64,000 nt of DNA, taken from Halovulum marinum (GTDB taxonomy: Bacteria > Pseudomonadota > Alphaproteobacteria > Rhodobacterales > Rhodobacteraceae). Both the position numbers and the translations under genes were made by a program. The stretch is taken from assembly GCF_009697225.1 (NCBI RefSeq), contig NZ_WIND01000002.1, positions 434,001-498,000 of the forward strand, in the 5' to 3' direction. Positions 15,542-19,754 of this stretch are shown here, one piece after another. The notes beneath the pieces were generated by a model. That model did not search any database, was not told where the DNA came from, and was given only the letters and a program-made list of their open reading frames with translations. The number at the start of each line of letters is the position of its first letter. The stretch's first letter is position 1.

Positions 15542-17749
<2,208 letters not shown>

Positions 17750-17983: not shown

Positions 17984-18599
17984 ATGCTTTTCATCGAGCC
18001 GATCGCGGACCGGGACGCCAGCGGGCCGGCCGCCGAATTACGCGGACGAGCGGCAGGGCCTCGGCCGCGTTCTGAACCTGCACCGGGCGCTCGCGCACAT
18101 TCCGTCGCTGGCGCGGCACTTCGAGGCGATGACCGGCGAGCTCAAGGCGCAGATGGGACTGCGCCGATACGAGCTTGTGACCATCGCGGCGGCGCTGGCG
18201 CTGCGCAGTTCCTACTGCGCGCTGGCCCATGCCTCGGTCCTGCTGCGCGACGGCATGGAGCCTGACGAGCTGTTGCGGATCGTCACCGATCCGCCCGGCG
18301 CGGCGCTGACCGGGGCCGAGCGGGAGATGATGGCCTATGCCGGCGAGATCGCCCGCGACGCCGCGGCGATCGACCCGGCCCGGATCGAGCGGCTGCGGGC
18401 GCACGGGTTCGCGGATGCCGAGATCTCCCGGATCGCCGCGACCGCGGCCTTGCGCAGCTTCTTCAGCAAGTACCTCGACGCGGTCGGCACCGCGCCGGAC
18501 GCGGACTACCTGGCGCTCCCGCCCGAGTTGCGCGAGGCGCTGGTCCGCGGGCGGGCCATCGCCGCCGCACCCGGCGACACGGCGGCGCCGCCGGCCTGA
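17984..18599 (+). pseudogene. AhpD/carboxymuconolactone-decarboxylase-like peroxidase, apparent frameshift
   Basis: GAGGAGG directly precedes ATG 17984, which opens MLFIEPIADRDASGPAAE, the normal start of peroxidase-related CMD proteins (FIEPI...A..Y). After codon 18 (GAA 18035-18037) the homologous sequence YADERQGLGRVLNLHRAL continues in another frame from 18039. One base (T18038) takes the place of a codon, as if two bases were lost or one gained. The rest (to 18599) keeps the CMD fold, but the usual CxxC pair appears as SSYCALAHAS with one cysteine. As sequenced it would not give a full protein unless there is frameshifting, a late start or a sequence error. Confidence 0.7.
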
Positions 18600-18657: not shown

Positions 18658-18686
18658 AAAAAAAAGGCCGAGCACAAGGCTCGGCC
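18658..18686 (-). terminator. Strong rho-independent terminator of the small-RNA candidate
   Basis: On the minus strand an 8-bp perfect GC-rich stem (GGCCGAGC / GCTCGGCC), a 5-nt loop (CTTGT) and a run of eight T (18665-18658). It would also end any transcript coming through the LysR gene. Confidence 0.85.
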
Positions 18687-18725
18687 CAAGTCCAACAGGG
18701 AGGTGAGAACGCTGCCGCGCTCTCG
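18658..18725 (-). ncRNA. Candidate intergenic small RNA with CCUCCC motif, two hairpins
   Basis: A compact minus-strand unit of about 67 nt. Order: promoter (18760-18732), predicted start near 18724, hairpin 1 (18724-18705: 8-bp stem GAGAGCGC/GCGTTCTC with one G-U pair, GGCA loop), a single-stranded linker containing CCUCCC (18703-18698), and an intrinsic terminator (18686-18658). The pyrimidine motif is complementary to Shine-Dalgarno sequences. It recalls the CCUCCUCCC-bearing CcsR/'cuckoo' RNAs of Rhodobacteraceae, but the motif is shorter and sits between the hairpins. No ORF is plausible. It lies 62 bp after the LysR gene; it could alternatively be only that gene's terminator. Confidence 0.6.
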
Positions 18726-18731
18726 ACCCCT

Positions 18732-18760
18732 GATATAGCGGGCACGCCCCCTGCAGACAA
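18732..18760 (-). promoter_or_regulatory. Promoter of the small-RNA candidate (TTGTCT-N17-TATATC)
   Basis: Minus-strand -35 TTGTCT (18760-18755) and -10 TATATC (18737-18732) with the optimal 17-bp spacer. The predicted start (about 18724) falls on the first base of hairpin 1. It lies in the gap downstream of the LysR gene with no protein gene following, so it would drive only the small RNA. Confidence 0.55.
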
Positions 18761-18821
18761 GCTTTAGGGCGTCCCGCACCGTGCATACCCGCCATATTGA
18801 TTCCGCATAGCTGCAGATGCG

Positions 18822-19754
18822 TCACAGGAAGCCGGCCGCGGGCTCGGGCTGAATATCCATGATGTCGGGATGGCGTCTCTTGAAGGTGTTGATCTCTTCG
18901 ATGATGAAGTCCCGGAACGCCGCGACGCGCTTGGACTGCCGCAGTTCCTCGGGATAGGCGAGATAGACCGGGATCGACTTGCTCATTTCGCGCGGCAGCA
19001 CGTTTACCAGCTGCGGGAAATCCGCGGCCACGTAATGCGGCAGCGAGCCGATCCCCAGCCCGTTCAGCACCGTCTGCAGGATGCCGAAATAGTTGTTCAC
19101 CGTCAGCCGGCTTTCGAACTCGGCCAGCAGGAACGGCTGCAGCCAGGTCAGCCCGGCGCTGACCTGCCGGCTCGAGGGGCTCTGGGTGATGATCCGGTGC
19201 TGCGCCAGCTCGTCCCTGGTCTTCGGCACGCCGTGGAACTCGATGTAGTCGGTCGAGGCGTAGAACTTCATCACCACGTCCATCAGCCGCCGCCGGATCA
19301 GATCGGCCTGGCTGGGCTCTTTCATCCGGATCGCGACGTCGGCCTCGCGCATCGGCAGATCGAGGACGCGTTCCTCGAGGATCAGGTCGATCTTCAGGTT
19401 CGGATAGCGCTCGTAGAGCCGGCCCAGCCGCGGCGCCAGCCACATCGTGCCGAAGCCGGTGGTCGTGGTCACCCGCAACTCGCCATAGATCGCGTCGGAA
19501 CTGTCGCGGATGCGCGCGGTCGCCGCGTCCAGCCGCTTGCGCATGGATTTCGTGGCGTCGAACAGTAGCTCTCCCTGCTCGGTCAGGATCAGCCCGCGCG
19601 CATGGCGGTGGAACAGGGTGACGTTGAGACTTTCCTCCAGCGCCCGGATCTGCCGCGACACCGCCGACTGGCTCAGGTGCAGCGCCTCGCCAGCGTGGGT
19701 CAGCGACCCCGCGTCGGCGACGGCATGAAAGATCCTGAGCTTGTCCCAGTCCAT
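18822..19754 (-). CDS. LysR-family transcriptional regulator
   Basis: 310 residues with the LysR winged-helix N-terminus (MDWDKLRIFHAVADAGSLT, then SQSAVSRQIRALE) and a periplasmic-binding-protein-like effector domain from about residue 90. The start ATG 19754 follows GGGAGGGG; the upstream open frame lacks this. It is divergent from the indolepyruvate oxidoreductase gene, with a T-N11-A dyad between them, so it probably controls that gene and itself. The inducer is unknown; an aromatic 2-oxoacid or amino acid is a reasonable guess. Confidence 0.9.
   Translation of the reverse strand: MDWDKLRIFHAVADAGSLTHAGEALHLSQSAVSRQIRALEESLNVTLFHRHARGLILTEQGELLFDATKSMRKRLDAATARIRDSSDAIYGELRVTTTTGFGTMWLAPRLGRLYERYPNLKIDLILEERVLDLPMREADVAIRMKEPSQADLIRRRLMDVVMKFYASTDYIEFHGVPKTRDELAQHRIITQSPSSRQVSAGLTWLQPFLLAEFESRLTVNNYFGILQTVLNGLGIGSLPHYVAADFPQLVNVLPREMSKSIPVYLAYPEELRQSKRVAAFRDFIIEEINTFKRRHPDIMDIQPEPAAGFL

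Follow-up and report, generated by a model that had tools for sequence, protein, structure and literature searches.

The minus strand of the window (the whole 64,000-nucleotide stretch of DNA analysed here) carries, between a lysR-type gene and purL, a compact element of about 100 bp, raising the question of whether it encodes a small RNA and, if so, to which family that RNA belongs. A sequence-only reading had described a promoter, an 8-bp hairpin, a CCUCCC motif and an 8-bp terminator with eight T within about 100 bp, all of which proved correct to the base, and had interpreted them as an orphan gene, perhaps of an undescribed family. Rfam matches and synteny with SorY contradict this latter proposal: the small-RNA family is already known, not new. 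Sequence and locus comparisons indicate that the element is very probably an ortholog of the SorY small-RNA gene, encoding a singlet-oxygen stress RNA described first in Rhodobacter sphaeroides, an alphaproteobacterium of the same GTDB family as the host.

Architecture of the element

The element spans positions 18761-18658 of the minus strand, where CTTGTC-N16-GCTATAT is followed by hairpin 1, an open linker, a terminator and eight U. Its parts and neighbouring genes are the following:

18822..19754, minus strand: lysR-type regulator gene, upstream neighbour (Pfam HTH_1, LysR_substrate)
18756..18761, minus strand: CTTGTC, -35 element of a promoter of the RpoH (sigma-32) type, CTTG at 18761-18758
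18733..18739, minus strand: -10 element GCTATAT (from sequence; promoter rules from PMC3441632)
18724..18726, minus strand: predicted transcription start, 18724 from promoter spacing and 18726 from homology
18658..18725, minus strand: very probable SorY ortholog, about 66-68 nt (Rfam matches and synteny with R. sphaeroides SorY)
18705..18724, minus strand: hairpin 1, GAGAGCGC-GGCA-GCGUUCUC, 8 bp (folding; arm-swap test)
18688..18704, minus strand: single-stranded linker ACCUCCCUGUUGGACUU, of anti-Shine-Dalgarno type and probably the region that pairs with targets
18658..18687, minus strand: intrinsic terminator GGCCGAGC-CUUGU-GCUCGGCC, 8-9 bp stem plus U8 tail
15542..17749, minus strand: purL, downstream neighbour (Pfam)

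The predicted start at 18724 fits the promoter spacing and agrees with the start near this position put forward by the earlier reading, while 18726 was obtained by aligning the mapped 5' end of R. sphaeroides SorY (1,632,642; PMC6238624) to the window copy. If transcription starts at 18724, the promoter presents TTG at -36 to -34, C-14, T-13, A-12 and T-9, the positions reported to be important for RpoHI and RpoHII (PMC3441632). A generic sigma-70 scan returned no promoter for the small RNA, as expected for a promoter of the RpoH type.

Folding of the 68-nt RNA yielded -32.8 kcal/mol (z -3.8; none of 200 dinucleotide shuffles folded as well) and left CCUCC unpaired, with a weak 2-bp helix alone farther downstream in the linker. 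The CCUCCC motif (18703-18698) lies within the longer linker CCUCCCUGUUGGACUU; allowing up to 2 mismatches, CCTCCCTGTTGGAC was matched once in the window, by the small RNA itself. In an RNA begun six or seven bases earlier, folding would pair a GGGG stretch with the linker; this stretch lies outside the predicted transcript, because promoter spacing sets the start downstream of it. The U8 tail of the terminator (18665-18658) is a probable Hfq site by prediction.

Assignment to SorY or SorX

The Rfam scan labels this locus SorX. RF02784 (SorX) matched the element with 55.9 bits (gathering score 46.6; E-value 6.7e-11 for the whole window) and was the sole Rfam family above its gathering score in the window, whereas RF02651 (SorY) matched the same stretch, under a relaxed threshold, with 49.8 bits, below its gathering score of 111. 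This latter score was reached in only one of 295 genomes of the family, the relative G051, while the RNA was found at 29 of 30 lysR loci (see below), and the RF02651 cut-off is hence species-specific and not a biological criterion: outside R. sphaeroides, almost every SorY gene falls below it. In G051, SorY maps to 1,632,645 and SorX to 2,598,225, in agreement with the positions given for R. sphaeroides 2.4.1 in PMC6238624 (1,632,642 and 2,598,224).

Gene order supports the assignment to SorY. G051 presents lysR-SorY-purL-bolA-grxD on one strand, and the window shows the same order, with lysR and purL products respectively 71% and 73% identical to those adjoining R. sphaeroides SorY. This gene order was found in most of about 150 loci examined. 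Like SorY, the element lies between lysR and purL, carries at the level of promoter sequence an RpoHI/RpoHII-type promoter of its own, and combines a 5' hairpin, the linker and a GC-rich terminator. A carboxymuconolactone decarboxylase family gene (17991-18599, plus strand), convergent with SorY, was observed between SorY and purL, and was not seen at this gap in the other loci examined. In another genome (G001:C9:60608-60866), two tandem SorX/SorY-type matches (L239/L243) adjoin the lysR ortholog, which suggests that SorY was duplicated locally there.

Taken at face value, the Rfam label would imply that RNase E releases the RNA from the 3' UTR of the upstream mRNA. That RF02784 alone passes its gathering score in the window speaks for this reading, but the window genome contains a separate SorX (L001) with the higher score of 62.5 bits, beginning 3 nt past the stop codon of an OmpR-type response regulator gene, and PMC6238624 and PMC8625941 place SorX in the 3' UTR of ompR-1. 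The gene upstream of the window element is lysR, and the element has the neighbours of SorY and its own promoter. Moreover, cross-matches to the SorX model are to be expected, since a genuine SorY itself scores 43.6 with it. With the true SorX located elsewhere in the genome and synteny contradicting the label, we consider the SorX identity very unlikely and have dropped it; because of the lysR/purL synteny and the separate, better-scoring SorX after ompR, SorY is the better name. This settles the annotation of a locus for which the Rfam label is misleading.

Conservation of promoter, linker and hairpin 1

An exact pattern search listed at least 119 loci, nearly all with lysR immediately upstream. 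Given that the invariance of the linker in this set arises by construction, lysR orthologs were sampled instead, regardless of the presence of the RNA. In this unselected sample, the exact 14-nt CCTCCCTGTTGGAC was detected 118-222 nt downstream of lysR in 29 of 30 orthologs. All 29 loci with the exact linker present a T-run after it, and 28 of them a visible GC-rich stem; in the remaining one the T-run search ended early. Upstream, the RpoH-type pattern CTTG-N16-20-nnTAnnT occurs at a consistent distance in 24 of the 29 syntenic orthologs (mean of 0.4 in shuffled sequence), in line with the earlier proposal of a small-RNA gene with its own promoter. SorY thus occurs family-wide and holds a fixed chromosomal position, and its control of the stress response is therefore probably ancient.

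Hairpin 1 differs strongly in sequence and length among relatives. In an arm-swap test on 118 relatives, taken among the matches listed and with 106 distinct 3' arms, the hairpin's own arms paired with -15.2 kcal/mol, versus -9.9 kcal/mol for arms exchanged between species, a gap of 5.3 kcal/mol that amounts to more than 20 standard deviations (standard deviation of exchanged means, 0.24). In a same-genus relative (G074) the promoter is retained, and the corresponding position holds a hairpin built from different bases. By these sequence comparisons, hairpin 1 is kept by pairing while its sequence changes.

These results bear on the possibility that the element is simply the transcription terminator of lysR, preceded by a hairpin that arose by chance. 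On the minus strand, no second terminator was detected in the interval from lysR to this one, which may therefore also end lysR transcripts. Nonetheless, promoter, linker and base-paired hairpin 1 are conserved across the family, and R. sphaeroides SorY is experimentally transcribed from the same locus. Since hairpin 1 is conserved as a structure, and not the terminator alone, the element is more than a LysR terminator; the terminator-only explanation is accordingly highly improbable, and was dropped on the conservation of promoter and hairpin. The conservation of hairpin 1 in relatives, on which the earlier reading had made its own proposal depend, hence stands.

Predicted mechanism, targets and related RNAs

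In PMC6238624, PMC5036791 and PMC8307010, R. sphaeroides SorY is described as an Hfq-binding primary transcript with its own, RpoHI/RpoHII-dependent promoter, which acts on takP, the gene of a transporter subunit, said to limit malate import. SorY lowers the uptake of certain nutrients under singlet-oxygen stress. The window genome encodes hfq and presents two clear matches to rpoH and a third, weaker one. Based on the biology of R. sphaeroides SorY and on the presence of rpoH and hfq here, the linker of the SorY ortholog would most likely base-pair, under stress, with transporter mRNAs at their ribosome-binding sites. RpoHI/RpoHII would transcribe SorY under singlet-oxygen, heat or stationary stress, and the resulting primary transcript, of roughly 67 nt, would bind Hfq via its U-tail. 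The open CCUCCCUGUUGGAC linker could then pair with the Shine-Dalgarno regions of specific mRNAs, probably from transporter genes, lowering their translation or stability, while hairpin 1 would shield the 5' end and keep the linker unpaired. The trans-acting regulator of translation envisaged by the sequence-only reading is thus retained as likely; nothing was found that points to the sponge it had offered as an alternative.

The predicted duplex between R. sphaeroides takP and SorY (-27.0 kcal/mol) covers AAGGGAGG of takP, but 125 of 500 controls retaining only ACCUCCC reach -25 or better against takP, and the duplex is hence without shown specificity, given that a quarter of these controls perform nearly as well. 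The protein used as R. sphaeroides TakP matches over its first 40 residues the Protein Data Bank entries 2HZK/2HZL, known as TakP. No close takP ortholog was found in the window genome, where the best relative presents 41% identity and no specific pairing, and the three nearest relatives showed no pairing beyond the anti-Shine-Dalgarno control. A potA family search matched many ABC ATPases, with no ortholog singled out. An exact search of the genome for the linker complement returned three sites (the SorY gene, a paralog on contig C66 and a LuxR/NarL-like coding region), and therefore no clear target. Outside the small-RNA genes, the genome contains exact CAACAGGGAGG at the LuxR/NarL-like site alone (L160:1501-1511; G000:C10:77659), which lies within the regulator's coding region, away from the start site. 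The combination of a near-universal SorY, an invariant 14-nt linker and a takP that is missing or diverged here might tentatively be explained by an ancestral, general target as yet undiscovered, takP being a lineage-specific addition. The search for SorY targets should extend beyond takP.

Further RNA genes of similar layout were observed. The C66 paralog (L004:1501-1578; G000:C66:181202-181279), unassigned to a family, combines a hairpin, CCTCCCTGTTGGAC and a terminator, is flanked by genes for a HerA-like ATPase and an IalB-like protein (both named by eye), and scores 30.9 bits with SorX and 34.9 bits with SorY, below both Rfam cut-offs. In relatives, L244, L245 and L248 (around position 1500) present TTCCTCCCTGTYAGACT after a long hairpin, with A/T-rich upstream DNA; all fall under the SorX cut-off, and they may represent a so far undescribed RNA of the SorX/SorY/mmgR-like set.

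Among known systems, the reading as an anti-Shine-Dalgarno RNA of the CcsR/cuckoo type, or as a sponge for other small RNAs, has next to no probability, and the CcsR kinship was dropped as unsupported: CcsR1-4, members of the RpoHI/RpoHII regulon in R. sphaeroides, have the C-rich CCUCCC anti-Shine-Dalgarno motif in common with the element, but form a four-copy cluster behind their host gene ccaF1 (PMC8625941), whereas a single RNA lies here behind lysR, not a ccaF1-type gene, and cmscan matches up to E = 5 contain no CcsR family, which is informative only if Rfam has a CcsR model. The mmgR/suhB RNA (RF00519) shares the hairpin, CCUCCCU linker and terminator, but the window element reaches 28.1 bits against a cut-off of 41, and the genome has its own mmgR (L003:1502-1576; C1:10220), which at 54.5 bits is above the cut-off. 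SorX (RSs2461, RF02784) presents the same architecture and a nearly identical linker, and its model matches the element above cut-off, but it is processed from the ompR-1 3' UTR and constitutes a separate gene in the window genome. Relative to SorY of R. sphaeroides (RSs1543, RF02651), the window copy differs in the sequence of hairpin 1 and in its length (8 bp versus about 14), in the carboxymuconolactone decarboxylase gene preceding purL and in a genome without a close takP ortholog; it shares with SorY the lysR-SorY-purL locus, the two-hairpin plan, the CCUCCCUGUUGGACUUGGGCCGAGC core, the RpoH-type promoter and the U8 tail.
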